The notes under the pieces are model-generated. The model saw only the letters and a program-made list of their open reading frames with translations. It was not told where the DNA came from and ran no database searches. Positions 1 to 12,077 of a stretch of 64,000 nucleotides of DNA are shown here, in pieces (the stretch's first letter is position 1; every line of letters begins with the position of its first letter). Origin of the DNA: Bacteroidales bacterium CF. GTDB lineage: Bacteria > Bacteroidota > Bacteroidia > Bacteroidales > UBA932. Location: the NCBI GenBank assembly GCA_000473305.1, contig CP006772.1, positions 868,001-932,000 of the forward strand. Reading direction: 5' to 3'. The position numbers were made by a program, and so were the translations under genes.

Positions 1-141
1 CGGATGGAATTGATTGTATTGTTCCAACGCAGAACGACCGTCGCTTACAAATGAGAGTTCATAACCGCTCATTTTAAGAAACTCGCACATGGCATAGCCA
101 AAGTTCAATTCATCATCGGCTAGAAGTATCCTCTTTCCCAT
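1..141 (-). CDS. response regulator, receiver domain (partial)
   Basis: The minus strand from 141 opens with ATG and reads MGKRILLADDELNFGYAM..., a typical response-regulator receiver start with the acidic Asp-Asp pocket at residues 9-10. Only 47 residues lie inside the window, so the phospho-acceptor Asp and the output domain cannot be seen. The gene overlaps the 3' end of the histidine kinase by 29 bases, so the two are surely one operon and a cognate pair. An OmpR/PhoB-type DNA-binding output is inferred from the 11-base-phased repeats next to the kinase gene, not seen. Confidence 0.88.
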   Translation of the reverse strand, partial: MGKRILLADDELNFGYAMCEFLKMSGYELSFVSDGRSALEQYNQFHP

Positions 142-1489
142 GCTCACAATTTATTGATAAAGTAAAAGTGCTTCCCTTTCCCACTTCGCTGACAAGAGTG
201 ATCTTACCTTTATGGGCTCTGACCACCCACATTACATAGTTAAGGCCAAGTCCGAAACCTTTGCCTTTCTGTGCATGCTCTTTCTTGCTGCCTCTGTAGA
301 ATTTTTCAAACACTTTGGCTTGTTCCTCTTTTGGAATGCCAATGCCATTGTCTTCTACAGATATATAGAAATATTTGCCCTCTTTGCGGGTAGAAACATT
401 AATTCTAACTGAATCGTTCGAGTACTTGATTGCATTATCTATCAGATTGCCAATTGCATTCGAGATATGAAGTTCATCACCGTATATCTCATCTCCTCCT
501 ATGGGTATCTGTGTAGTAATAACAATACTCTTTTTGGGGTCTACATTGTGTCTGGCTATGTGCGGGTCTATAGCCTCGTGGATATTGAATACTTTTTTCT
601 TTAGCGGGGCTTGTCTTTTTTCAAATTTGTTAATATCAAGTATATTCTCTATCAGACCATTAAGGAAATAGAGCTGTTCTTTAGACTTTCCCAGGAAGTA
701 AGGTGCAGATTTGGAGTCTGCCATCTCAGCAACCTCTAGGTTTGTTATAGATGATTGTAACGGGGATCTCAGTTCATGCGTAAGGAAGTGTGTAATATTC
801 TCCTTCACTTTGGCAAGCGATACCTGCTTGTACAACATTCGTGTCTGGAGTACTATACTTACCATAATAAATATGGTCAAGACGAGTGACGAGAGCAGCA
901 TTATCAGAAGGTCTCCCTTGAAAACCGTCGGTGGATATAAAATATGAGCTGAAACAATCAGATCTTTTGACATACTTATAGGAAGAGATGTTTCAAAGGA
1001 GGATTTGATCAATATATTCTTAAATACCTTATCGCTCTCTGCACTGTATGTCGATGATGTGGTTGAATCGAGATATGTAAGTTTGAAATTTGTCTCTTTT
1101 CCATCTGCTTTCAGAAGATCTGCAAAATATTTCGATAGTGTGTCAATCTCTAAAGGTAGAATGTTTTTGTATGCATCTTGAAGTGCAGCCTCAATCGATA
1201 CTTTGGTAAAATTATTACCCTCTTTTATACCAACATCCTTGTATTTTTCCTCATTTTGAGATATGTCAGATGGAGCATTATTCGAAATAACAACAGAAAA
1301 ACCATCGCTTTTGCTGATTTTTTTCATTCTGGAGTTAAGCTCCTTGTTTACAGCATCCTTAAGTATAGACTCCGTTTGGGTTCGATAATCAACCTTCTCA
1401 CTGTCAATGAGTCTGTATAGCCATACACCCTGGATGCCCAGAAGAAAAAATATTGCAATAATAGATATTGTAAGTGCTCTGTTAAGCAT
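113..1489 (-). CDS. membrane sensor histidine kinase
   Basis: A 458-residue two-component sensor kinase of the inner membrane. It has an N-terminal membrane helix (about 7-25), an extracytoplasmic sensor of about 165 residues, a second helix (about 194-214), a HisKA domain with phospho-acceptor H238 in THELRSP, and an HATPase domain with N box (348-357), G1 box DNGIGIP (380-386) and G2 box GFGLGL (411-416). The large external region could detect a secreted ligand. It is transcribed away from the double-glycine peptide gene, and its start codon is 3 bases from an array of 11-base repeats. That layout makes the exported peptide, or damage caused by it, a plausible input; this is inference. Confidence 0.95.
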   Translation of the reverse strand: MLNRALTISIIAIFFLLGIQGVWLYRLIDSEKVDYRTQTESILKDAVNKELNSRMKKISKSDGFSVVISNNAPSDISQNEEKYKDVGIKEGNNFTKVSIEAALQDAYKNILPLEIDTLSKYFADLLKADGKETNFKLTYLDSTTSSTYSAESDKVFKNILIKSSFETSLPISMSKDLIVSAHILYPPTVFKGDLLIMLLSSLVLTIFIMVSIVLQTRMLYKQVSLAKVKENITHFLTHELRSPLQSSITNLEVAEMADSKSAPYFLGKSKEQLYFLNGLIENILDINKFEKRQAPLKKKVFNIHEAIDPHIARHNVDPKKSIVITTQIPIGGDEIYGDELHISNAIGNLIDNAIKYSNDSVRINVSTRKEGKYFYISVEDNGIGIPKEEQAKVFEKFYRGSKKEHAQKGKGFGLGLNYVMWVVRAHKGKITLVSEVGKGSTFTLSINCEHGKEDTSSR

Positions 1490-1536
1490 TTTTCAGCAAA
1501 TTATCAGTAAATGGTCAGCGTTCTGTATGCAAATGT
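1490..1536. promoter_or_regulatory. four 11-base-phased direct repeats (likely response-regulator operator)
   Basis: Starting at 1493 there are four adjacent 11-base units: TCAGCAAATTA, TCAGTAAATGG, TCAGCGTTCTG and TATGCAAATGT. The first is part of the 12-mer TTTTCAGCAAAT (1490-1501), which recurs exactly at 1773-1784 in the exporter promoter. One-helical-turn spacing is typical of OmpR/PhoB-type response regulators. The array covers the kinase 5' leader and its probable -7 element, and lies 56-99 bases upstream of the peptide start, so it could repress one direction and activate the other. Binding is inferred. Confidence 0.6.
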
Positions 1537-1537
1537 A
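1530..1537 (-). promoter_or_regulatory. -7 promoter element for the kinase/regulator operon
   Basis: The minus strand reads TACATTTG, a perfect TAnnTTTG -7 element, about 40 bases upstream of the kinase start. No good -33 element sits at the normal distance, which would fit a promoter controlled by a regulator bound at the overlapping repeats. Confidence 0.5.
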
Positions 1538-1551
1538 ACAATTATTCTTAA

Positions 1552-1559
1552 TTTATTTG
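1552..1559 (+). promoter_or_regulatory. possible -7 element for the double-glycine peptide gene
   Basis: TTTATTTG matches TAnnTTTG at 7 of 8 positions and lies 32 bases upstream of the peptide start. No clear -33 element is present 19-21 bases upstream; the 11-base repeats begin just beyond, which fits an activator-dependent promoter. Confidence 0.35.
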
Positions 1560-1591
1560 TACAACAAAAAACAAATAAAAACATCAAAGCC

Positions 1592-1723
1592 ATGAGAACA
1601 AATTTTGAAAAACTGAATGAACAAGAGATGATTAACGTAGTAGGTGGTGATCAAGTTATACGAGTAACTGATTCTGATGGTAGCGTATATTACATTATTA
1701 TTCGTGACGGTAGGAAGAATTAA
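1592..1723 (+). CDS. double-glycine leader peptide (bacteriocin or pheromone precursor)
   Basis: A 43-residue precursor. Residues 1-19 form a ComC/bacteriocin-type leader with a conserved amphipathic pattern (LNEQEMINVVGG) ending in Gly18-Gly19, the site cut by C39-peptidase exporters. The 24-residue core starts DQVIRV and ends RDGRKN. It is free of Cys, Asp-rich, and alternates polar and beta-branched/aromatic residues (VYYIII) around two Asp-Gly turns, suggesting a beta-hairpin. An in-frame upstream start at 1511 would add 27 residues unlike any leader and would lie in the promoter, so ATG 1592 is chosen. The next gene encodes a matching exporter. No lanthionine, radical-SAM or YcaO enzyme is nearby, so the product is probably unmodified. 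Whether it signals or kills is not determined. Confidence 0.8.
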   Translation: MRTNFEKLNEQEMINVVGGDQVIRVTDSDGSVYYIIIRDGRKN

Positions 1724-1763
1724 ATTAAGTCTTTTATCTGAAGTTTGCCCCCATTTAATGATA

Positions 1764-1797
1764 ATTTGCTGATTTTCAGCAAATAAGGATTCCTTTG
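1764..1797 (+). promoter_or_regulatory. exporter promoter with embedded inverted-repeat operator
   Basis: A perfect 9-base inverted repeat, ATTTGCTGA (1764-1772) and TCAGCAAAT (1776-1784), is separated by TTT. Its left arm contains TTTG (1765-1768), which sits 21 bases before TTCCTTTG (1790-1797), a 7/8 match to the -7 element. The right half with its spacer is the same 12-mer found upstream of the kinase. There is no following T-run, so an operator is more likely than a terminator. The promoter would give a leader of roughly 10 bases before ATG 1815. Confidence 0.55.
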
Positions 1798-1814
1798 ATT
1801 GTGAAATTTAAATA

Positions 1815-4013
1815 ATGTACAGGAGACCATTCAGACATTTCCATCAGCTGGACTCCATGGATTGCGGCCCCACATGCCTGAGAATGGTTGCCATGCATTA
1901 TGGACACCATTATACATTAGAGACACTGAGGGAAAAGTGTGAATTTTCCCGGGAAGGTGTAAATCTGTTCGGTATTGCAAAAGCCGCAGAGAGCATTGGG
2001 TTTAGATCTACCGGAGCAAGGCTCTCATTCGAGGAGTTGTGCAAAGCTCCTTTCCCAATAATCGTACATTGGAATCAACGCCATTTTGTGGTCCTATACG
2101 GGACCAAGGGAAAAGGGCGTAATATAAAGATGCTGATAGCAGATCCGGCCACCTCGCTTGTAGAGCTAAGTGAGAGTGAGTTTAAGAAGTCTTGGTACAG
2201 TACTGTAAAAGACGGAGTCGGATTGGGCATAGCACTCATACTGGAACCCACACCCAGATTCTACCAGGAGGATGGAGAGTCTGTCAACAGGAGAGGGTTC
2301 AAATTTCTCAGGACATATTTAAAACCATTCAGGAAATTTATAGTACAGCTGATTGCCGGGCTTTTTATAGGAAGCTTGCTGCAGCTTATTCTGCCCTTCC
2401 TAACCCAGAGTATAGTAGATATAGGTATAGGCACACAAGATATAGGCTTTATCTGGCTTGTACTGATCGCTCAGCTCATGCTGGCCATAAGCATGGCTTC
2501 AGTAGAGTTTATAAGGGGGTGGATACTGTTACACATGGGTACGCGGATAAATATCTCGCTGATATCAGATTTTCTCACTAAACTGATGAAGCTGCCCATC
2601 GGTTTCTTCGACACGAGAATGACCGGCGACCTTCTCCAGAGGATTGACGATCATAAACGAATTCAGAATTTTCTGACGGGATCATCTCTGAATGTCTTAT
2701 TCTCACTCTTCAACATTGTAATTTTCGGGGCAGTATTACTTTACTATAGTCCCATAATATTTTTAATTTTCATTGTCGCTTCCGTTGCATACGTCTTGTG
2801 GGTGTTGATTTTTATGAAGAGAAGGAGGGAGTTGGACAATAAGGCATTTACACAAAATGCAGCCAATCAGAACTCTGTAATACAGCTTATTACGGGAATG
2901 CAGGAGATAAAACTGAACAGTTGTGAACGACAGAAAAGATGGGAGTGGGAGAGAATTCAGGCACGTCTGTACAGGCTTAACATAAAAGGGCTGGCCCTCG
3001 GTCAGTACCAGGAGGCGGGAGCCACACTGATAAATCAGCTGAAAAATATTCTCATAACAGTATTTGCCGCGAGCTCTGTGCTTAATGGGGAGCTTACTCT
3101 CGGTATGATGCTTTCAGTTCAGTTTATTAATGGTCAGTTGAATGCGCCCCTTATGCAGGTTATTTCATTTCTGAAGGCATCTCAGGATGCTAAAATATCA
3201 CTTGAGAGGCTTGCAGAGATTCATGATAAAAAAGAGGAGGAGAATGAGGAAGAAAACCATATTTCGGAGATTGCGAGCGGCAAGTCCATTACTATAGAGA
3301 ACCTCTCTTTTAAATATGAAGGTGCCGGATCTCCGATGGTTTTAAAAAATATCAACCTCTCCATCCCGAGTGGTAAGGTTACGGCGATAGTTGGCACAAG
3401 TGGCAGTGGCAAGACTACATTGGTGAAGCTGTTGTTGGGTTTCTATACTCCTCAGGAGGGTACCATCAAGTATGGAGAGAACAATCTCTTTTCTCTAAGT
3501 ATGGAACGCTGGAGGGAGAAGTGTGGTGTCGTGATGCAGGATGGATTTCTCTTTTCGGATACTATAGCCGGAAATATTGCCCCCGGAGTTGAGTCGATTG
3601 ATGTGCCAAGAATGGAGAAAGCTGTTGATATTGCCAATATAAGGGATTTTGTAGAGAGCCTTCCATTATCTTACAATACAAAAATAGGGCAGGAGGGTCA
3701 CGGACTGAGTCAGGGACAGAAGCAGCGTCTGTTGATAACCCGTGCAGTATACAAGGATCCTGAACTTATATTGTTTGACGAAGCGACAAACTCACTCGAT
3801 GCAAACAATGAGATGCAGATTATGAGTAATCTGGATGAATTTTTTGTGGGCAGGACAGTACTGGTTGTAGCGCACAGGCTAAGTACGGTCAAGAATGCAG
3901 ATAATATTGTCGTACTGGACAAAGGCGTAATAACCGAATCGGGAACACACAGTGAGCTTATTGACAAAAAAGGGGCTTACTGGCAACTAGTAAAGAATCA
4001 ATTATATGTCTGA
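1815..4013 (+). CDS. peptidase-containing ABC exporter (C39/PCAT)
   Basis: A 732-residue bacteriocin-type exporter that cleaves double-glycine leaders and pumps the core across the inner membrane. The N-terminal C39 peptidase has C17 (in DCGP), H90 (HFVVL) and D110 (ADP), so the catalytic triad is complete. An ABC membrane domain with about six helices follows (about 165-450). The ATPase has Walker A GTSGSGKTT (527-535), signature LSQGQ (631-635), Walker B with D655-E656 and a downstream switch His (VAHRLS). The gene lies 91 bases after the leader peptide gene and overlaps the HlyD gene by 8 bases. All key residues are intact. Confidence 0.96.
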   Translation: MYRRPFRHFHQLDSMDCGPTCLRMVAMHYGHHYTLETLREKCEFSREGVNLFGIAKAAESIGFRSTGARLSFEELCKAPFPIIVHWNQRHFVVLYGTKGKGRNIKMLIADPATSLVELSESEFKKSWYSTVKDGVGLGIALILEPTPRFYQEDGESVNRRGFKFLRTYLKPFRKFIVQLIAGLFIGSLLQLILPFLTQSIVDIGIGTQDIGFIWLVLIAQLMLAISMASVEFIRGWILLHMGTRINISLISDFLTKLMKLPIGFFDTRMTGDLLQRIDDHKRIQNFLTGSSLNVLFSLFNIVIFGAVLLYYSPIIFLIFIVASVAYVLWVLIFMKRRRELDNKAFTQNAANQNSVIQLITGMQEIKLNSCERQKRWEWERIQARLYRLNIKGLALGQYQEAGATLINQLKNILITVFAASSVLNGELTLGMMLSVQFINGQLNAPLMQVISFLKASQDAKISLERLAEIHDKKEEENEEENHISEIASGKSITIENLSFKYEGAGSPMVLKNINLSIPSGKVTAIVGTSGSGKTTLVKLLLGFYTPQEGTIKYGENNLFSLSMERWREKCGVVMQDGFLFSDTIAGNIAPGVESIDVPRMEKAVDIANIRDFVESLPLSYNTKIGQEGHGLSQGQKQRLLITRAVYKDPELILFDEATNSLDANNEMQIMSNLDEFFVGRTVLVVAHRLSTVKNADNIVVLDKGVITESGTHSELIDKKGAYWQLVKNQLYV

Positions 4014-5316
4014 AAAGAGGAAGATAGAGATAAAATCCGATGATGTCAATGAGATTCTCTCAAGAGCACCGGGATGGACAGTGAGATGGGGAAACACACT
4101 CATACTGGCCATTGTCTCTCTTTTCATTATTGGCAGTGCCCTCTTCAGATATCCGGACAAACTATCCGCTCCTATAACCGTAACTTCTGAAAACCTTCCT
4201 GCACAACTCATGGCGAAAACGACAGGAAGGGTTCAGGAGCTGTTTAAGAGCGACGGTGACGTGGTATCTAAGGGAGATGTGATTGCTATGATTGAGAATT
4301 CCGCCTCTTTCACAGATTATATGAAATTGACGGATGCACTCGATTCTTTGCTGGGAAATGGATTTCTTGCAGAAAACATTGTTGTTGAGGATTTGCCAGT
4401 CAATCTTCAGCTGGGAGACATACAGGATGCCTATAACCAGTTTCTTGGCAGGGCCAGAGAGTACGGGAATTTTATCAGACTTGACTATCACAAGAAGAAA
4501 TCAATACTGATAAAGCGAGAACTGGAAGCTCAACGCTCTATGATCAGGCAATACAGCCGTCAGATTTCAATATCGTCTGAGCAGGTTGATATTGCTTCCC
4601 GGAGGTATTCAAGGGACAGCCTCTTGTATGTTCAGAAAGTCATTTCACAGTCTGACATTGAAAGCAGCAAGGCATCAAAACTTTCTGCAAGGCAGGATTA
4701 TGAGGGAGCCAGGAAAAATATGGAGGATCTCAGGCTCACAGCCCTTCAGAGTGAACAATCCCTTCTTGACCTCGAACTGGACAAGGATAAGCAGAAGAGT
4801 AACCTGCTGTCCGGATTATCAGGAGACTTGGATCTGCTGAAAGCGGCATTGAGAAAGTGGGAACAGGACTATCTTCTGATATCTCCACTAAACGGTAAAC
4901 TCTCTTTTACCAGGTTTTGGCAGAAAAATCAAAACGTGACCGAAGGAGATGTTGTGTTTACTATTGTACCGGAAAATGATGCAAATATTAAGGGAAAGAT
5001 ATTCCTTCCTCTTGAGGGTGCAGGAAAAGTGAAAATTGGACAAAAGGTGAATATCAAATTCGATAATTTCCCTTACATGGAATTCGGTATGGTTGAGGTG
5101 AAGGTTCTGAGGGTCTCTTCTGTGCCGGCACTTGTGGATAATAAACAGGTATATGTGGTAGACGTGCTTTTACCACAGAAACTTGTAACAAATTACGGAA
5201 GGGAGCTTCCATTCTCAGAAGAGATGAGAGGTATTGCTGAGATAATTACAGAGGAACTGAGTATACTTCAGAGAATAGTTTTCCCTGTTAGACACATATT
5301 AAAGAGCAGAACGTGA
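4006..5316 (+). CDS. HlyD-family secretion adaptor
   Basis: A 436-residue periplasmic adaptor that links the ABC exporter to an outer-membrane channel. It has a short cytoplasmic N terminus, one membrane helix (about 31-48), a lipoyl-like segment (about 63-97), a long coiled-coil hairpin (about 150-270) and a C-terminal beta-barrel part. ATG 4006 overlaps the exporter stop by 8 bases, implying translational coupling. No TolC-like gene is in the window, so the outer-membrane partner is presumably encoded elsewhere. Confidence 0.92.
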   Translation: MSEKRKIEIKSDDVNEILSRAPGWTVRWGNTLILAIVSLFIIGSALFRYPDKLSAPITVTSENLPAQLMAKTTGRVQELFKSDGDVVSKGDVIAMIENSASFTDYMKLTDALDSLLGNGFLAENIVVEDLPVNLQLGDIQDAYNQFLGRAREYGNFIRLDYHKKKSILIKRELEAQRSMIRQYSRQISISSEQVDIASRRYSRDSLLYVQKVISQSDIESSKASKLSARQDYEGARKNMEDLRLTALQSEQSLLDLELDKDKQKSNLLSGLSGDLDLLKAALRKWEQDYLLISPLNGKLSFTRFWQKNQNVTEGDVVFTIVPENDANIKGKIFLPLEGAGKVKIGQKVNIKFDNFPYMEFGMVEVKVLRVSSVPALVDNKQVYVVDVLLPQKLVTNYGRELPFSEEMRGIAEIITEELSILQRIVFPVRHILKSRT

Positions 5317-5681
5317 TGAGTGTTACTGTTGTCATATTGCTTATTGGGTGTGCTTCTGCTGTATGTGCAAGCATGATTGCCTCTTTATTGCACAGAGTCA
5401 AGTGGTTTTCAGGGAGGAAGAAAAGCCCGTGGCAGGTGCTCAATCTTGTATTCACTGCACTTTATCAGTATAACAATAAGTTTTATAACCCTTTTCCTAT
5501 GTTAAGGGAATTAATGACCTGCACACTTTTTACAAGTCTTTGCTTTAAGTATCTGGTAGCGCCGGATTGTTATACTCACCTGCGATGTGTTGCGGGGTCG
5601 TTTATGCTTGTGATTCTGCTTACTACAATAATTCATGTTTTTGTCTACTGTAAGTTATATGACCAGAAACTTGCTGTCTGA
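5316..5681 (+). CDS. small membrane protein of the peptide-export operon
   Basis: A 121-residue hydrophobic protein that I do not recognise. It has an N-terminal membrane helix (about 3-25), a basic stretch (RVKWFSGRKK), a middle part rich in Asn, Tyr and Phe, and one or two further hydrophobic segments (about 66-80 and 92-112), with seven Cys in total. ATG 5316 overlaps the HlyD stop by one base (TGATG); a GTG one codon upstream is also possible. Its place at the end of the exporter operon fits an immunity or accessory protein, but nothing in the sequence proves this. Confidence 0.75.
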   Translation: MSVTVVILLIGCASAVCASMIASLLHRVKWFSGRKKSPWQVLNLVFTALYQYNNKFYNPFPMLRELMTCTLFTSLCFKYLVAPDCYTHLRCVAGSFMLVILLTTIIHVFVYCKLYDQKLAV

Positions 5682-5700
5682 AGAATTATTCCTACCTTTG
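5671..5700 (+). promoter_or_regulatory. promoter (-33 TTG, 19-base spacer, -7 TACCTTTG)
   Basis: TTG at 5671-5673 and TACCTTTG at 5693-5700 are 19 bases apart, a full Bacteroidota promoter. The -7 element ends only 5 bases before the next ATG (5706), so the transcript would be leaderless or nearly so. It lies at the end of the small membrane protein gene and marks the start of a separate operon. Confidence 0.7.
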
Positions 5701-5705
5701 TAGTT

Positions 5706-6149
5706 ATGAAAAAAGTGCTCAAACCGTCACTGACCATAGTTCTCCTTATATTCTATATAATGGCGAGCTTCGGTATTGGTGTCCACGAGTGCTCTGCCAG
5801 TGGAACTGTTTCCATCAGGGTCTTTGCATCTTCAAAAAACTGTGATGCCATTCACACAATTTGCAACTGCAAGCATCATCATCACGACGGTCTAGTCGAA
5901 CATCAGCACCATTCTCCAAAATGTTGCCACACAACCATTCATCAGCTGACTCAGGATTATGATGTCTCCCATCCTGATTTTAAATTTAACCAGGTAAAGA
6001 TATTTGACTTTATATCAAATTATATAGCATCTTTTTCAACTGGAGTCTCTTCGGATAACGCATATCTGTCGTTATGCAGGAGTTTCACACCACCACCTCT
6101 TATCAAAGAGAAAGATCCATATTCATACCACTCTCAGTGGAGATTGTAG
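5706..6149 (+). CDS. His/Cys-rich secreted protein, HYC_CC_PP type
   Basis: A 147-residue protein with an N-terminal hydrophobic signal or anchor (about 7-25), then His-x-Cys (H27, C29), a CNCKHHHH cluster, further His residues (66-69), a CC pair (73-74) followed by His, and a PPP motif near the C terminus. These are the hallmarks of the HYC_CC_PP family of Bacteroidota, whose members lie beside TonB receptors. The dense His/Cys content suggests binding of copper, zinc or a similar metal in the periplasm; the metal is not known. It is followed after 39 bases by a TonB receptor. Confidence 0.75.
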   Translation: MKKVLKPSLTIVLLIFYIMASFGIGVHECSASGTVSIRVFASSKNCDAIHTICNCKHHHHDGLVEHQHHSPKCCHTTIHQLTQDYDVSHPDFKFNQVKIFDFISNYIASFSTGVSSDNAYLSLCRSFTPPPLIKEKDPYSYHSQWRL

Positions 6150-6188
6150 AGATTCTATCGTTCCCGGATAGAAATCTTATACAATTTA

Positions 6189-8390
6189 ATGAATATGAAA
6201 AAAACAATTTTATCAGTAATATTACTATATATTACCACATTCACTTTTGCACAGACAATTAATGGTATCGTAAAGGTACAGCGCATAAGCGGAGATGTGG
6301 AACCACTGCCATATGCCTCGGTATACTGGCTCGAAGGAAAGCTTTCTTTGGAATCGGATGAAGAGGGTAAGTTTATAATTAAAAATAACAATGCACAGAA
6401 AGTATCCCTGATAGCAACCTATATAGGTTACTCAAAGGATACGGTAGTTCTTTCCCCTGGGGAGAAAAACGCAGAGTTCCTGCTCAAAGAGGGAAATAGC
6501 CTTGATGAAGTCAGGGTTGTCGGAAGACAAGAGGGCAACTATATATCAAAGATGACTCCTGTAAAGACTGAGGTAATCTCTGCAGCAGGGTTATGCAAGA
6601 TGGCATGTTGCAACCTTGCAGAGAGCTTTGAAAATTCGGCAAGTGTCACAGTAGGTTATGCCGATGCAATAACAGGCGCCAGACAAATAAAACTACTCGG
6701 ACTATCTGGCCAATACACTCAGATGCTGGACGAAAACAGACCGGTAATGAGAGGTATTGCAGCTCCATTCGGGCTTTCGTATATCCCGGGTCAATGGCTT
6801 GAGAGCATTCAGATTGCAAAGGGGCCATCTTCTGTTGTTAACGGAATAGAGGCAATTACCGGGCAGATTAATATGGAGCACAGGAAGCCGACAGCCGAAC
6901 AACCTTTATTCATAAATCTTTTCCTCAGTGACAAACTGAGAACCGAGGCAAATGTAGCCTCTTCACTTCAATTGAACCAAAAATGGAGTACGGTGATTCT
7001 TGGTCATATCTCGAGGGATTTTATGGATCACGATGGTAACGGTGACGGTTTCAAGGACGATCCTCTGACAACTCAGTTCAATCTGTCTAATCGTTGGCTT
7101 TATGCTCCGTCAAACGGCATTCAGCTAAGATTTGGGTTTAAGGCGATGAGTGATGAAAGGATTGCCGGTATGAATGATTTCAAAGAGGATTCTGAGATGA
7201 CAAACACCCTTTGGGGATCCAATATCAAGAATAAAGGTCTGAATGGATATGCAAAGCTGGGAATTCCGCTTAATGAGGATAACTCAAAGAATATAGCCGG
7301 AGTCGTGGATTATTCTATGTATGAAATGAACTCTTTCTTTGGACACAATAGTTATGACGCAACTCAGAATTCGGTTTTTGTCAACCTGATGCTTCAGAAT
7401 CAGATAAATGACAAACATAAGTATATTGTGGGACTCAGCGGGCAATACGATAATTTTGACGAGTTCCTTAATAGTGCATCAATCGGAAGAGTAGAGCAAT
7501 CTGCCGGAGCGTACGGAGAGTATACTTACACCAATGGGGACAAGATTACTTTCGTTACAGGCCTCAGGCTGGACAACAACAACATCCACGGATGGCTTTT
7601 TGCACCTAGGATGAACTTGAAGTATGCCTTTACTGAGAAACTTATCCTCAGAGCATCCGGTGGCAGGGGATTCAGATCTCCAAATCAGGTTGCCGATAAT
7701 CTGGGTATATTGTCAACCGGCAGGCGTATCCAGCTGGAGGCAAATCCAGATATGGAGGATGCCTGGACTTATGGCATGAACCTTACCGGTTATATGCCTT
7801 TCGGCTTTGATAAAAATGCCACTCTCAGTTTTGAGTACTTCAGGACAGACTTCCAACATCAACTGATTGTTGACCAGGAGAGAGATCTTTCGGTTGTCTG
7901 GTTGTATAATCTCTCAGGTCGTTCATATACAAACACATACCAGGCGGACTTCTCTTTCCAGCCTATTGAGCGTTTTACTGTTCTTCTTACATACAGGCTT
8001 ACTGATGCTAAGGTTACACTTGATGGTCAGGGACTCGTTGAGAGGCCTCTTATGAGTAAATATAAGGGAGTTCTGAATTTGCAATATGCTACAAGGATGA
8101 ACAAGTGGACATTCGATTTTACAGCACAGCTCAATGGTCCTGCAAGGTTGCCGAATTTCATGACAGAGGAGTACTCTCCTGTATATCCTGTCCTTTATGC
8201 CCAAGTTACAAAAAGGTTCAAGAATCTTGATGTGTATATCGGGGGAGAGAATCTGACCAACTACAGGCAAAAAAATCCTATACTTAATGCAGACCAGCCG
8301 TTCAGCGAAGGTTTCAATACCACAGTAATATGGGGTCCGCTTATGGGAGTCAAATTTTACGGAGGGCTTCGCTTTACCCTTTGGAAATAA
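6189..8390 (+). CDS. TonB-dependent outer-membrane receptor
   Basis: A 733-residue TonB receptor. It has a signal peptide (about 1-21 ending TFAQ), a carboxypeptidase-D-like beta-sandwich (about 22-105), a plug (about 115-235) and a 22-strand-type barrel ending in aromatic Trp-Lys. The plug region contains a Cys-rich stretch, LCKMACCNLAESFE, seen in a receptor subgroup usually placed with metal-related genes. ATG 6195 two codons downstream is an alternative start. Its position between a His/Cys-rich protein and a metal-binding-domain protein points to uptake of a metal or metal chelate; the substrate is inferred. Confidence 0.9.
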   Translation: MNMKKTILSVILLYITTFTFAQTINGIVKVQRISGDVEPLPYASVYWLEGKLSLESDEEGKFIIKNNNAQKVSLIATYIGYSKDTVVLSPGEKNAEFLLKEGNSLDEVRVVGRQEGNYISKMTPVKTEVISAAGLCKMACCNLAESFENSASVTVGYADAITGARQIKLLGLSGQYTQMLDENRPVMRGIAAPFGLSYIPGQWLESIQIAKGPSSVVNGIEAITGQINMEHRKPTAEQPLFINLFLSDKLRTEANVASSLQLNQKWSTVILGHISRDFMDHDGNGDGFKDDPLTTQFNLSNRWLYAPSNGIQLRFGFKAMSDERIAGMNDFKEDSEMTNTLWGSNIKNKGLNGYAKLGIPLNEDNSKNIAGVVDYSMYEMNSFFGHNSYDATQNSVFVNLMLQNQINDKHKYIVGLSGQYDNFDEFLNSASIGRVEQSAGAYGEYTYTNGDKITFVTGLRLDNNNIHGWLFAPRMNLKYAFTEKLILRASGGRGFRSPNQVADNLGILSTGRRIQLEANPDMEDAWTYGMNLTGYMPFGFDKNATLSFEYFRTDFQHQLIVDQERDLSVVWLYNLSGRSYTNTYQADFSFQPIERFTVLLTYRLTDAKVTLDGQGLVERPLMSKYKGVLNLQYATRMNKWTFDFTAQLNGPARLPNFMTEEYSPVYPVLYAQVTKRFKNLDVYIGGENLTNYRQKNPILNADQPFSEGFNTTVIWGPLMGVKFYGGLRFTLWK

Positions 8391-8437
8391 ATAAACCTAT
8401 TTTAAACTTTTTACTAATTTTACAAACAATAAAAACC

Positions 8438-8755
8438 ATGAAAAATATTATCAAATCAATCTCGCTTTTACTTGTAGCATCTATCTTTATCTTCACAAAT
8501 ACAGCAAATGCCCAGAGCAAAAAGAGCAGCAAGGATGTTGAAATAACATTCTCTGTTGACATTGACTGTCCTTCATGCAAGAAAAAACTTGAGGACAAGC
8601 TGCCATTTGAGGCTGGTGTGAAAGATCTGAAAATAAATCTTGAAGAGCGCACTATCTGGATGAAGTATGACTCAAGCAAGACAGATAAGGTGAAACTTGT
8701 AAAAGCTATAGAGAAACTCGGTTATGCTGCAAAAGAGATCGAGGTTAAAAAATAG
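8438..8755 (+). CDS. secreted heavy-metal-associated (HMA, MerP-like) protein
   Basis: A 105-residue protein with a signal peptide (about 1-25, ending ANAQ) followed by one HMA domain (about 33-105). The metal motif is DCPSC with C44 and C47, a variant of the usual MxCxxC. The start at 8438 is chosen because it gives a normal signal peptide; the open frame upstream overlaps the receptor gene. It probably binds a soft metal such as copper in the periplasm and works with the preceding receptor. The next gene begins 6 bases after the stop. Confidence 0.88.
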   Translation: MKNIIKSISLLLVASIFIFTNTANAQSKKSSKDVEITFSVDIDCPSCKKKLEDKLPFEAGVKDLKINLEERTIWMKYDSSKTDKVKLVKAIEKLGYAAKEIEVKK

Positions 8756-8761
8756 CTTATA

Positions 8762-9574
8762 ATGAAAGGTCTGACCTCTCTGATTTTTTTAATGATAATC
8801 ACCTTTAATTCACTCTGTTCGCAGGTGAATAAAGGTGATTCTCCTTTTTATGAGCAGATGCGTATTCTCCCTTTTCAACAGAGGGAGGAGCTTATTGTGC
8901 GGGAAGTGCTTTCAGGAGATATTCCTGAGTATATGAGAGGTTTTGTAGAGATAAGATTTAAAAGCACAGATGCTTTCGGGGAAGGTCACAAGGTGACAAT
9001 TTTTGTTAAACCTGACTACATTACCATAGGACAGGACAAATCATCTTTCATAATTCCTATGAGCCCCGCAGCAGCGCAGAAAATTGCCGATTCCCTGAAT
9101 TGCTCATTACCTACTCCAAAGCTTGTAGATATCATCTATTCTCACTCAAAGCTCAAGGTTGAACCATTCAATTTTATTCCTCGGGGAGATAGAAATGAGA
9201 CTCCGGATATATTATATGACCATTCAAGAGTTATATTTGCACAAATCAAGGCATCCGGGTGCAATCCCGGAGTTTTTATAGCCGGGAGCAAGAAAGACAT
9301 CGTAATTACTACCGCTTTGGAAGACTCGTTGAGGAGGAGGCACAATGTTACGATCTACGGATGGCACAGATTGGACGGCACTCCTATACAGCCTGTACAC
9401 AACAAACATCTTGTAACCTATGTGGATTACAGCCATGGGGTAAGACTAGTCTCCAACAAGATCTTGATAGACGGCAAAGAGTACGACTACAGAGATATTT
9501 TGAAAGATAATGTATATCACGTGCTATTGAGCAATGAGGAAAAACCATTTAAGATAACATCATACTCATATTAG
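8762..9574 (+). CDS. secreted protein of unknown function
   Basis: A 270-residue protein with a signal peptide (about 1-20, ending LCSQ). I do not recognise the family. The C-terminal half has a patch that looks conserved, with a GWHRLDG segment followed by YVDYSHGVRLV; its Asp and His residues could form an active or metal site. It is packed 6 bases after the HMA gene and 4 bases before the GH9-deacetylase gene, so it is co-transcribed and may act on the same extracellular glycan. No function is claimed. Confidence 0.7.
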   Translation: MKGLTSLIFLMIITFNSLCSQVNKGDSPFYEQMRILPFQQREELIVREVLSGDIPEYMRGFVEIRFKSTDAFGEGHKVTIFVKPDYITIGQDKSSFIIPMSPAAAQKIADSLNCSLPTPKLVDIIYSHSKLKVEPFNFIPRGDRNETPDILYDHSRVIFAQIKASGCNPGVFIAGSKKDIVITTALEDSLRRRHNVTIYGWHRLDGTPIQPVHNKHLVTYVDYSHGVRLVSNKILIDGKEYDYRDILKDNVYHVLLSNEEKPFKITSYSY

Positions 9575-9578
9575 ATTT

Positions 9579-12077
9579 ATGAAAAAACTATTATTCACCT
9601 CTTTCCTGTTATTTTTATCATTTATGAATGTTGATTGCAATGCGCAGTCATGGATAAGGATTAATCAGGCAGGCTATCTGCCTCAGGATGTCAAGGTTGC
9701 AGTATTTATTTCACTGGACACTCTGACATCGGATCGGTTTGAAGTAATCGATGCTCTGACTTTGAAATCTGTTTTCAAGGGCAATGGCAGAAAGGTCAAT
9801 GCTAAGGTTTGGGGTATGAAAAATGCTTACAGGATGGATTTTTCATCGATCAAAACCGGCGGTGGGTACTATATTGTCTCAAACGGAGTAAAATCGCCGA
9901 ATTTCAGAATCTCTCCGGATGCTTATAGCGGTTTGTCTGATTTGATGTTGGTCTATATGAGGCAGCAGAGGTGTTATGACAATCCGTATACCGGTCAGAT
10001 CTGCCATGCAGACGACGGTTATATTGTAAACCATCCGACCAGAAATGGTGAGAAAATTGATGTAAGTGGCGGGTGGCATGATGCAACCGACTATCTCCAA
10101 TATCAGACAACCTCCGGGACCGCTCTCTATCATATGATGTTTGCTTGGCAACAGCAAAAAGATAAATCGGTGTTCAAGGATTTGTATGATGCCAGGGGAC
10201 GGAAAGGGTCTAACGGAATACCTGATATTTTGGACGAGATTAAATGGGGAATGGATTGGATGGTCAGGATGAATCCTGAGGACAAGGTTATGTTCAACCA
10301 GATTGCGGATGACAGGGATCATGCAGGGTTCAGGCTTCCACAAAATGATAAGGTTGATTACGGCTGGGGTCCTGGTAAGGGCCGGCCTGTCTATTTTGTA
10401 ACAGGAGAACCTACTGGCTTGAGAAAATGGATTAACCGTACAACAGGAGTCTCTTCAGTTGCAGGGAAGTTTGCCTCATGTTTTGCTTTGGGTGCTGAAA
10501 TCTTTAAGGAATCAGATCCGCAATTTTCAGTAAAACTGATGGAAAAGGCAAAACAGGCTTACGCATTTGCAGAGGAGAAACCGGGGAACACTCAGACAGC
10601 TTGTGTGGTCTCTCCATATTTCTACGAAGAGGATACTTATGTGGATGATATTGAACTTGCTGCGGCTACCTTTTACAATTTAAGCAATGAAACTGAATGG
10701 GTTAAAAAGGCTGATTACTGGGGTGAACTGGAGCCTGTAACTCCATGGATGGAACTAGGAAGAGGAAGACACTACCAATACTATCCTTTTATAAACCTGG
10801 GCCATTATTACCTTGCTCAATCATCTGACAAGAAGGTCAGCGATAAATATATTGCATATATGAAAGCGGGGCTTGAAAGCCTGAAAAACAGAGCTGCAGA
10901 TGATCCTTTCATTTATGGCGTGCCGTTCCTCTGGTGTTCAAACAATCTGGTCTCTGCTGCCATAACACAGGCACATCTGTACAGGAAAGTGACTAATGAT
11001 AGTACTTATCTTGAAATGGAGATGGCGTTGAGAGACTGGTTATTCGGTTGTAACCCTTGGGGAACTTCAATGATTGTCGGTTATCCCGAAGGAGGTGATT
11101 ATCCTGACTCACCTCACTCCTCATACACACAAGTAAATGGAGACCTCACAATCGGAGGTCTTGTGGATGGACCTATCTATTACGGTTTGTTTCACGAAAG
11201 GGCAGGAGGGGCTTTGAGGAATCCTGATAAATATGCACCTTTTAACAATGGCAAAGCCGTTTACCACGATGATATAGGAGATTACTCCTCAAATGAACCT
11301 ACAATGGACGGAAGCGCCGGTCTTACATACTACTTTGCAGCCATGGAGACAGAGGGGAAAGATTATGCAAAGTCTGACAATCAGGAGACAAATGTTGAAA
11401 AAGATGCCTATGGTGCAATAGTTAGGATTAACCCTGACAAGAAAACAATATATCTTGTTTTTTCAGCAGATTCAATGTTCCAGGGAGGGGAGACAATTCT
11501 CAAGACCCTCGATGCAAACAAAATTAAAGGATCTTTCTTTTTTACCGGCAACTTTCTGAGATTGGAGAGTATGAAGGGCATTATCTCAAAAATTGTGAAG
11601 AGAGGCCATTTTGTGGGAGGTCACTCTGACGGACATCTGCTTTACGCAGAATGGGGAGCTAAGCGTCAGACACTTGTGACCCCTGACAGTCTTACAGCAG
11701 ATCTTCGAAGAAACTATCAGGAGTTGTCAAAATTCGGAATCAAGCCATCCGATGCATTGTGGTATCTTCCTCCATATGAGCATTATAATGTGGAATCTGT
11801 CGAAACCGCATCCAGGGCAGGTCTTAGGACAATCAACTACACTCCGGGAACTGCCACTCCTGCAGATTACACCACACCTGACATGAAAAGTTACAAAAGC
11901 AGCAAAGAGCTTATTGATAAACTTTTTAACTTTGAAAAAGAGAAAGGGCTGAACGGGGCAATTATCCTTATTCATCCCGGTGTTCAGGATACCAGGATTG
12001 ACAAGCTTTATGACCAGCTTGGAGTAATTATAAAGAGATTGAAGAGGTTAGGCTATTCATTCGAAAGACTTAAATAA
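9579..12077 (+). CDS. glycoside hydrolase family 9 fused to a NodB-type polysaccharide deacetylase
   Basis: An 832-residue secreted enzyme with a signal peptide (about 1-23), an N-terminal Ig-like CelD domain (about 25-110), a GH9 alpha/alpha barrel (about 120-595) and a NodB/CE4-like domain (about 618-832). GH9 catalytic residues are present: D168 and D171 in GGWHDATDY, and E573 in SSNE. In the deacetylase part the His motif H682-x3-H686 (HSDGH) is intact, but the usual TFDD motif is replaced by VFSAD (627-631), leaving one Asp. The likely substrate is a beta-linked glycan carrying acetyl or N-acetyl groups. Confidence 0.9.
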   Translation: MKKLLFTSFLLFLSFMNVDCNAQSWIRINQAGYLPQDVKVAVFISLDTLTSDRFEVIDALTLKSVFKGNGRKVNAKVWGMKNAYRMDFSSIKTGGGYYIVSNGVKSPNFRISPDAYSGLSDLMLVYMRQQRCYDNPYTGQICHADDGYIVNHPTRNGEKIDVSGGWHDATDYLQYQTTSGTALYHMMFAWQQQKDKSVFKDLYDARGRKGSNGIPDILDEIKWGMDWMVRMNPEDKVMFNQIADDRDHAGFRLPQNDKVDYGWGPGKGRPVYFVTGEPTGLRKWINRTTGVSSVAGKFASCFALGAEIFKESDPQFSVKLMEKAKQAYAFAEEKPGNTQTACVVSPYFYEEDTYVDDIELAAATFYNLSNETEWVKKADYWGELEPVTPWMELGRGRHYQYYPFINLGHYYLAQSSDKKVSDKYIAYMKAGLESLKNRAADDPFIYGVPFLWCSNNLVSAAITQAHLYRKVTNDSTYLEMEMALRDWLFGCNPWGTSMIVGYPEGGDYPDSPHSSYTQVNGDLTIGGLVDGPIYYGLFHERAGGALRNPDKYAPFNNGKAVYHDDIGDYSSNEPTMDGSAGLTYYFAAMETEGKDYAKSDNQETNVEKDAYGAIVRINPDKKTIYLVFSADSMFQGGETILKTLDANKIKGSFFFTGNFLRLESMKGIISKIVKRGHFVGGHSDGHLLYAEWGAKRQTLVTPDSLTADLRRNYQELSKFGIKPSDALWYLPPYEHYNVESVETASRAGLRTINYTPGTATPADYTTPDMKSYKSSKELIDKLFNFEKEKGLNGAIILIHPGVQDTRIDKLYDQLGVIIKRLKRLGYSFERLK

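Follow-up and report, generated by a model that had tools for sequence, protein, structure and literature searches.

A candidate double-glycine peptide signalling cassette with its own two-component system in a Bacteroidales genome

Introduction

Does a small Bacteroidales locus, in which a double-glycine precursor peptide, a C39 exporter and a two-component system lie side by side, encode a circuit that responds to its own peptide? The locus occupies the left end of a 64,000-nucleotide (nt) stretch of Bacteroidales bacterium CF (bases 868001-932000 of the 2.66-Mb single-contig genome), which as a whole is referred to below as the window. Here we describe the cassette and find that the two-component system very likely controls the peptide gene, as judged from a conserved repeat array, fixed promoter spacing and covariation with the regulator. 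A pheromone-like peptide circuit is the best explanation of the locus, and one we consider moderately probable.

Peptide pheromone circuits are textbook knowledge in Firmicutes. In the ComABCDE and BlpABCHR systems of streptococci, a double-glycine pheromone, a C39 exporter with its adaptor, and a kinase-regulator pair are linked by autoinduction. Bacteroidota are abundant in the gut, and the locus resembles a form of peptide signalling mostly known from quite different bacteria, with the peptide as the putative signal. If the sensing step is true, density or neighbour sensing in Bacteroidota would be opened to experiment.

Organization of the cassette

Protein families were assigned by a Pfam/TIGR profile scan, with some neighbouring genes named by eye only; compared loci and genomes carry L and G numbers. 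The sensor histidine kinase (113..1489, reverse strand) has 458 amino acids (aa) and consists of a first transmembrane segment (TM1), an extracytoplasmic domain of approximately 165 residues, TM2, a HisKA domain with H238, and a HATPase domain. The N, G1 and G2 boxes are present, and hydrophobic stretches at residues 1-20 and 188-220 enclose the outside domain, which is periplasmic by predicted topology and bears out the large external sensor of an earlier sequence-only reading of this DNA. The profile scan matched HATPase_c, with HisKA at 23.4 bits falling slightly below its cut-off of 26.9. A single-sequence AlphaFold model of the kinase was too poor to read (mean predicted local distance difference test, pLDDT, 37.8) and was discarded. 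The start of an OmpR-type response regulator overlaps the kinase end by 35 bases on the same strand. Only its 5' part lies in the window (1..147, reverse strand), where the left edge cuts the gene; the complete 225-aa protein (L009:5470-6147) contains Response_reg and Trans_reg_C domains.

The peptide and exporter genes run on the forward strand, so that the kinase-regulator pair is divergent from the double-glycine precursor, in agreement with the sequence-only reading. The precursor (1592..1723, 43 aa) has a 19-aa double-glycine leader and a 24-aa core. It is followed by an ABC exporter (1815..4013, forward strand, 732 aa) in which Peptidase_C39 (PF03412), ABC_membrane (PF00664) and ABC_tran (PF00005) are fused. 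The triad of C17, H90 and D110 is complete, all three residues having been read correctly before, and Walker A and signature motifs were found; the protein thus qualifies as a peptidase-containing ABC transporter. An HlyD-type adaptor (4006..5316, forward strand, 436 aa, HlyD_3 match) and a 122-aa protein with a GTG start and two hydrophobic stretches (5313..5681, forward strand) each begin before the stop of the gene upstream, as expected from the overlaps described earlier. The last of these is a real frame and an accessory one: it matches no family above cut-off in the profile scan and has no counterpart in the homologous cassettes L049-L051, L053, L058-L060 and L063, so that its earlier standing as a cassette member holds for the frame and not for constancy. 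No modification enzyme was seen within the cassette in either frames or profile scans, which is also what had been proposed. No radical S-adenosylmethionine (radical-SAM) gene was recognized among the frames of window positions 1-12000 or L009 1-7600, by eye except for the profile-scanned proteins.

Regulation of the peptide gene

Between the kinase start and the peptide start lie four head-to-tail 11-bp repeat units, TCAGCAAATTA, TCAGTAAATGG, TCAGCGTTCTG and TATGCAAAT (1493..1534, forward strand), which take the form TCAGC-N6 in the window lineage and are the proposed regulator binding site. PhoB/OmpR-type regulators act on 11-bp direct repeats, and the cassette shares with them a winged-helix regulator and head-to-tail 11-bp half sites about the -35 region. 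It departs from them in having four half sites, lineage-specific letters, and a fixed spacing of 58-59 nt to a TAnnTTTG-like element. TAnnTTTG is the -7 consensus of Bacteroidota promoters; the element TTTATTTG (1552..1559, forward strand) matches it with one mismatch and lies 59 nt from the array, first base to first base. TTTATTTG recurs at exactly 59 nt in the cassettes with TCAGC or TGAGC arrays, and the TAAGG cassettes have a 5-of-6 match at 58. Removal of near-copies, defined as sites that differ in at most 12 of 75 letters, left 21 of 33 array sites; all five cassette sites among them have a -7 element with five or six of its six letters at offset 59.

The letters of the array change between lineages with the repeats kept, reading TGAGC in L052-L054, TAGGT in L063 and TAAGG in L058-L060, and across 14 loci one segment of the regulator changes with them. 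With TCAGC arrays this segment is (T/P/A)KKSLEALASH(L/V)RKK. With TGAGC arrays it is PKRTLEATTSN (L053), PKRSIETLTSN (L054), or PKRALEALT before the L052 regulator, which ends early and was kept as is, breaks off. TAGGT is accompanied by AKKSLEALVLN and TAAGG by NMNNLDVL or NINNLDVL, and L047, which has a mixed array, reads PKRSLETLASH; the L051 regulator lies off its contig. From the OmpR fold we take the covarying segment to be the recognition helix. Because of the array, the fixed promoter spacing and this covariation, the two-component system very likely controls the peptide, and regulators and arrays together provide a natural series on the joint change of a regulator and its sites.

A stem-loop between peptide and exporter (TTTGCTGA-TTT-TCAGCAAA, 1765..1783, no strand assigned) also looks like a regulator array in inverted form. 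We set it aside as a second site for the regulator: its letters agree with the lineage in L052-L054 and disagree in L051, and L058-L060, L062 and L063 have gaps too small to contain it. We leave it as either a stem-loop or a weak site.

Arrays also occur away from the cassette. In the window's own genome, a three-unit pattern without mismatch is found at three places, namely the cassette, 1505294, and 2406883 before an SDF-type symporter. A relaxed pattern gave 46 matches across the 25 genomes of the genus (11 in cassettes, some overlapping within one array) versus 2 for a backward control. Twenty regions around these genus matches were fetched, together with the two extra own-genome sites. 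Outside cassettes there are 16 nonredundant sites, of which 5 carry the -7 element (again five or six of six letters) at offset 59, the next best offset reaching 2 of 16; L152, L153 and L167, among these 16, are probably chance, and L165 agrees with the spacing if its second unit is taken as the start. In the own genome, all 14 sites that have two mismatches lack the element at that offset. In three genomes (L159, L160 and L164) the gene behind the fitting site encodes a 7TM-sensor kinase; we regard the three as orthologues, and their arrays are TCAGC or TGAGC depending on the lineage. At L156 the site is followed first by the gene of a small protein whose start resembles a signal sequence and then by that of a DUF5128 beta-propeller protein. 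The remaining fitting sites precede genes for a GLPGLI-family protein (L158) and for a 147-aa protein without assigned family (L166). Since arrays of the same type precede other genes in the genus and recur twice more in the own genome, the circuit, as read from these sites, is self-regulated but not closed. The sequence-only reading had called it closed and self-contained: control of the peptide by the two-component system stands as very likely, and "closed" is too strong.

The precursor peptide

The precursor consists of the leader MRTNFEKLNEQEMINVVGG and the 24-residue core, with its stop at 1721-1723. An alternative start at 1511, which gives a longer frame, was dropped in favour of 1592 because the homologues begin at the equivalent position. 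A strict leader pattern has one match in the six frames of the window, which is this peptide, and a loose pattern has two. Relatives have homologous frames at the equivalent position, and 17 sequences give the consensus METTFEKLNxQEMINVVGG-DRVxxIxDxxGNVxYIII. The leader has the features of the double-glycine type (GG end, conserved hydrophobic/acidic pattern, neighbouring C39 exporter), with the L063 leader ending in GS. No family matched the window peptide above cut-off. It scored 15.5 bits against bacteriocin_sig TIGR01847, just below the cut-off of 15.7, and 14.3 bits against TIGR04149 (cut-off 25), which places it outside that family of radical-SAM-modified RiPPs (ribosomally synthesized and post-translationally modified peptides).

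In 105 pairs from 15 main-lineage loci, nonsynonymous differences (pN) were compared with synonymous ones (pS). The mean pN of a 16-residue core segment is 0.22 versus a pS of 0.73, with pN below pS in 103 of the pairs; for the leader the values are 0.06 versus 0.49, with pN lower in 102. By this measure the peptide is under purifying selection, and the 43-codon frame reads as a real gene. A single-sequence model of the peptide (mean pLDDT 80.1) has strands at residues 21-26 and 32-37 around a D-x-x-G turn, and the core is probably a beta-hairpin. The same model placed a strand at residues 10-15 of the leader, which was not trusted. When 393 genomes of the order were searched with a profile of the peptide, the own genome and G004 stood out clearly, with E 1e-22 or better; a further seven, weaker matches (E 0.0015-0.0087) were taken as chance, five of them lying inside frames of more than 200 aa.

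Such a peptide could also be a regulated effector, where the kinase senses some other cue (envelope, metal or competitor) and the exported peptide acts on other cells like a class II bacteriocin. Bacteroidetocins (PMC6671954) are among the Bacteroidales peptides that combine a double-glycine leader with a C39 exporter, the window leader comes close to the bacteriocin_sig cut-off, and control by the regulator is equally expected for an effector. However, the five cores computed are acidic or near neutral (charges -0.2 for the window to -8.2), the window core contains no cysteine, and the cores are strongly conserved between species, unlike arms-race toxins. The cassettes also lack a constant immunity-like gene, the membrane protein being missing from part of them, and sensor and core diverge together. 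Coyne et al. 2019 (PMC6671954) describe bacteroidetocin clusters with a five-transmembrane protein and a thiol oxidoreductase, and the two mature peptides studied there contain four cysteines in 42 aa; the main text of the paper uses none of the terms two-component, histidine kinase and HlyD. The cassette shares with these clusters the Bacteroidales host, the GG leader and the C39 exporter. With a 24-aa core free of cysteine, and no thiol oxidoreductase recognized by eye among the cassette neighbours, the window peptide falls outside the bacteroidetocins. We consider an effector role rather unlikely, and the pheromone-like circuit preferable.

Conservation of the unit

The gene order, small peptide frame included, recurs in other genomes, as the sequence-only reading had proposed to check. 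The peptide gene adjoins the kinase in 22 of 23 kinase loci of the same genus (the partial match of G022 left out), and the exception, G013, ends at a contig edge. Strong exporter matches (E 1e-150 or better) were found in 53 of 118 genomes and in 23 of the 25 in the genus, own genome included. The sensor profile matched 24 of the 25 genus genomes (G022 partially, G003 not). In the family it matched 39 of 249 genomes, and in the order 3 of 393, with this genus accounting for two of the three. Fifteen family genomes outside the genus have weaker sensor matches (E 9e-21 to 1.7e-6).

An exporter tree of 57 rows comprises 19 exporters with kinase and peptide, 28 without and 10 unknown, where "without" means that no close relative of this kinase adjoins the exporter; a twentieth exporter with both genes (L079, partial) was left out. 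All 19 fall in a single 24-row branch with a support of 100 in the Shimodaira-Hasegawa-like approximate likelihood ratio test, together with two rows without and three unknown. Two changes of state suffice on the tree when unknowns are omitted, and five when they form a class of their own. The sequence-only reading had named, as a finding that would speak against it, homologous loci that keep the exporter and lack both the peptide and the two-component genes. Such exporters do occur, in 28 of the 47 scorable rows, and two of them (L055 and L056) lie inside the cassette branch. Other two-component genes lie near some of the rows scored as without (L073, L077 and L087).

Two further settings contain the unit. 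One is a second gene neighbourhood, represented by L058-L060, where kinase identity is 42-43% and the peptide leader reads MTPEEMAQL; the other is a different genus, represented by L062, whose kinase is truncated where the contig stops. A scan for related loci yielded a single one, the near relative L100, which has a kinase 95% identical to that of the window and the same peptide as G006:C131 (L168). On this distribution the cassette genes form one conserved unit. A housekeeping two-component system that happens to adjoin an unrelated peptide exporter could draw on the genes after the cassette (window 5706-8755), which encode an HYC_CC_PP-like protein (22.3 bits, cut-off 28) and TonB-receptor-like and HMA-like proteins (both by eye): frames of similar size and order follow the cassette in the main lineage, though not in L058-L060, and are thus likewise syntenic. 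A chance neighbourhood is nevertheless disfavoured and highly improbable, as the unit stays together in another neighbourhood and another genus, the array before the peptide covaries with the regulator, and strong sensor matches (E 1e-74 or better) are confined, within the 249 family genomes, to the cassette-bearing genus.

The peptide as a proposed signal

In the circuit we favour, the 43-aa precursor would be recognized through its double-glycine leader by the exporter, whose triad is intact, and the C39 ABC exporter with HlyD would cut after the GG and export the core, both steps being those expected of these protein families. The core of approximately 24 residues, predicted to fold as a beta-hairpin without modification, would be the ligand of the extracytoplasmic domain of the neighbouring kinase. 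The phosphorylated regulator would then bind the four 11-bp repeats about the -35 region of the peptide promoter, a step supported by conservation and covariation, and turn on the peptide, probably with exporter and adaptor. The peptide would therefore raise its own production and export. The regulator would also act at a few promoters elsewhere, and therefore the outputs of the loop would extend beyond itself.

From adjacency, shared presence and the co-divergence of sensor and core at a few loci, we infer that the peptide is the ligand of the kinase. Over 17 loci the distances of sensor and core correlate with r 0.84. In partial Mantel tests the correlation given the kinase domain is r 0.43 for these 17 loci and r 0.59 for 14 main-lineage loci. 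For the eight loci with all proteins, 6 of the 14 having been lost for want of a full-length or labelled HlyD, the sensor-core correlation is r 0.51 given HlyD (p 0.008) and r 0.54 given kinase, HlyD and exporter (p 0.015). In the same set, each protein given all others, the values are 0.14 for HlyD, 0.32 for the exporter body (p 0.075), -0.16 for the kinase and -0.29 for the C39 domain.

Several observations weigh against this account. Uncorrected, the kinase domain follows the core with r 0.85 over the 17 loci, as good as the sensor, and HlyD follows the core with r 0.52 given the kinase. Permutation in the partial Mantel tests leaves shared ancestry in, and the best-controlled test covers eight loci, so the co-divergence of sensor and core is suggestive. 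A 2.8-kDa peptide beyond the outer membrane would need a route back to the periplasmic sensor, and none was identified; the evidence that the peptide binds or activates the kinase is indirect. A separate exporter promoter may exist in 7 of 20 loci, the window not among them, where TAnnTTTG precedes the exporter by 34-38 nt. Both extra own-genome arrays lack a -7 element at 59, and one of the two is flanked by convergent genes. A search for arrays of the TARGK type (TAAGG/TAGGT) matched 15 times, including 7 matches that fall in cassettes or in a paralogous system, and its control 18 times, so that those lineages show no excess of arrays beyond the cassettes and that one system. We regard the sensing step as a good hypothesis and the regulatory half of the circuit as well supported.

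Alternatively, the peptide could be released into the periplasm and report the state of the exporter or envelope to the kinase of the same cell, with no signalling between cells. The predicted periplasmic location of the kinase domain fits such self-monitoring, as do two otherwise intact cassettes with truncated HlyD-like adaptors (L042, 185 aa; L057, 172 aa) that lack the lipoyl and long hairpin region, which should reach an outer-membrane channel; no gene for such a channel was recognized in the cassette. The adaptor of the window and most other complete adaptors are full length, however, and we think self-monitoring distinctly unlikely. Among relatives of the exporter, split HlyD matches suggest similar truncation at L071 and L090; at L093 and L095 the match covered the C-terminal part only.

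For the pheromone-like circuit, the locus is a compact and testable candidate: its 24-residue core can be made synthetically, the kinase adjoins the peptide gene, and the promoter and regulator site are predicted to the base.

Comparison with known systems

The cassette resembles ComABCDE and BlpABCHR in its double-glycine leader, C39 exporter with adaptor, kinase-regulator pair, and proposed autoinduction logic. Unlike the polytopic HPK10 kinases of those systems, the cassette kinase has two transmembrane segments, a large extracytoplasmic domain and HisKA, and its regulator carries Trans_reg_C where theirs carry LytTR. The Gram-negative host and HlyD adaptor are further differences, and defined by an HPK10 kinase and a LytTR regulator, the ComCDE/BlpC type does not include this cassette. 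Radical-SAM-modified RiPP clusters of Bacteroidota with TIGR04149 precursors have the GG leader and C39 exporter in common with it and differ in the radical-SAM gene, of which none was seen in the window cassette, and in the peptide, which scores below the cut-off of that profile.

Another Bacteroidales cluster, BGC5, is reported in a RiPP survey of Bacteroidales (PMC10352776) as a precursor with kinase and regulator, and in this it is like the cassette. That account of BGC5 includes radical-SAM enzymes and no C39 exporter, unlike the cassette, which has the exporter and no recognized radical-SAM gene. No double-glycine pheromone of Bacteroidota was among the matches listed from titles and abstract openings of the open-licence literature, with most subscription journals and preprints outside it; this scope is narrow, and the absence is therefore weak evidence. 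The window cassette is probably a new form of double-glycine peptide signalling. More tentatively, such cassettes could represent a Bacteroidales peptide quorum-sensing class of their own, a proposal we hold as possible and somewhat short of probable. This class would comprise short beta-hairpin double-glycine peptides, a two-transmembrane kinase with periplasmic domain, and an OmpR regulator on four-unit 11-bp arrays 58-59 nt from a -7 element, with a DNA code that varies by lineage. Its regulon would reach other kinases, beta-propeller lipoproteins and small secreted proteins, and a related kinase and array would also drive a radical-SAM-type peptide cluster.

Related systems in the order

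Twenty regions around the weaker sensor matches and G201 were fetched. G201, which belongs to another family, has a distant analogue (L222:7251-15871): its kinase-regulator pair, with a weak sensor match (E 1.4e-7), runs divergently from a double-glycine frame of 39 aa whose 14-residue core is hairpin-like. A second GG-type frame lies at 11156, and a C39 exporter with 39% identity approximately 4 kb on. In G001 (L210:3432-7696), approximately 2.7 kb separate a paralogous kinase (35%) from a precursor that scores 64.3 bits against TIGR04149 (cut-off 25). A TAAGG-type 11-bp array stands between the two with TAGTTTTG 58 nt on, and no regulator was found beside this kinase. Because of the G201 and G001 cases, we read two-component genes as recurring beside double-glycine peptide clusters in these bacteria. 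L210 and L222, together with L218, are the fetched regions at double-glycine clusters. In L218:1-12246, the double-glycine frames encode cysteine-rich cores and are accompanied by two pairs of kinase and regulator and by a gene that looks radical-SAM-like by eye.

Twelve of the 20 regions have a frame of approximately 350 aa (one cut at 296) and no convincing double-glycine gene beside it. The four that were scanned (L219:5753-6802, L223:6737-7783, L225:2079-3155 and L214:6158-7198) are not kinases; they are membrane-type proteins with a weak N-terminal sensor-profile match and a C-terminal Trans_reg_C. In these proteins the sensor fold is apparently fused straight to a DNA-binding domain with no kinase between. 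Among the other regions, L228 and L229 are cassettes of the genus, L221 breaks off with its contig, and L215 and L216 each contain a kinase and a regulator and no double-glycine gene.

Further observations

A second C39-type exporter frame in the own genome (L010:5733-7838) is 28% identical to that of the cassette and lies near TolC-like and HlyD-like genes (by eye). The own-genome four-unit array between convergent genes (L121:4795-4832), with no gene seen behind it on that strand, is kept in G006 (L161). In L154, L157 and L162, two facing arrays approximately 155 bp apart lie between an EamA-like transporter (by eye) and another gene, which in L162 encodes a DUF5128 beta-propeller protein.

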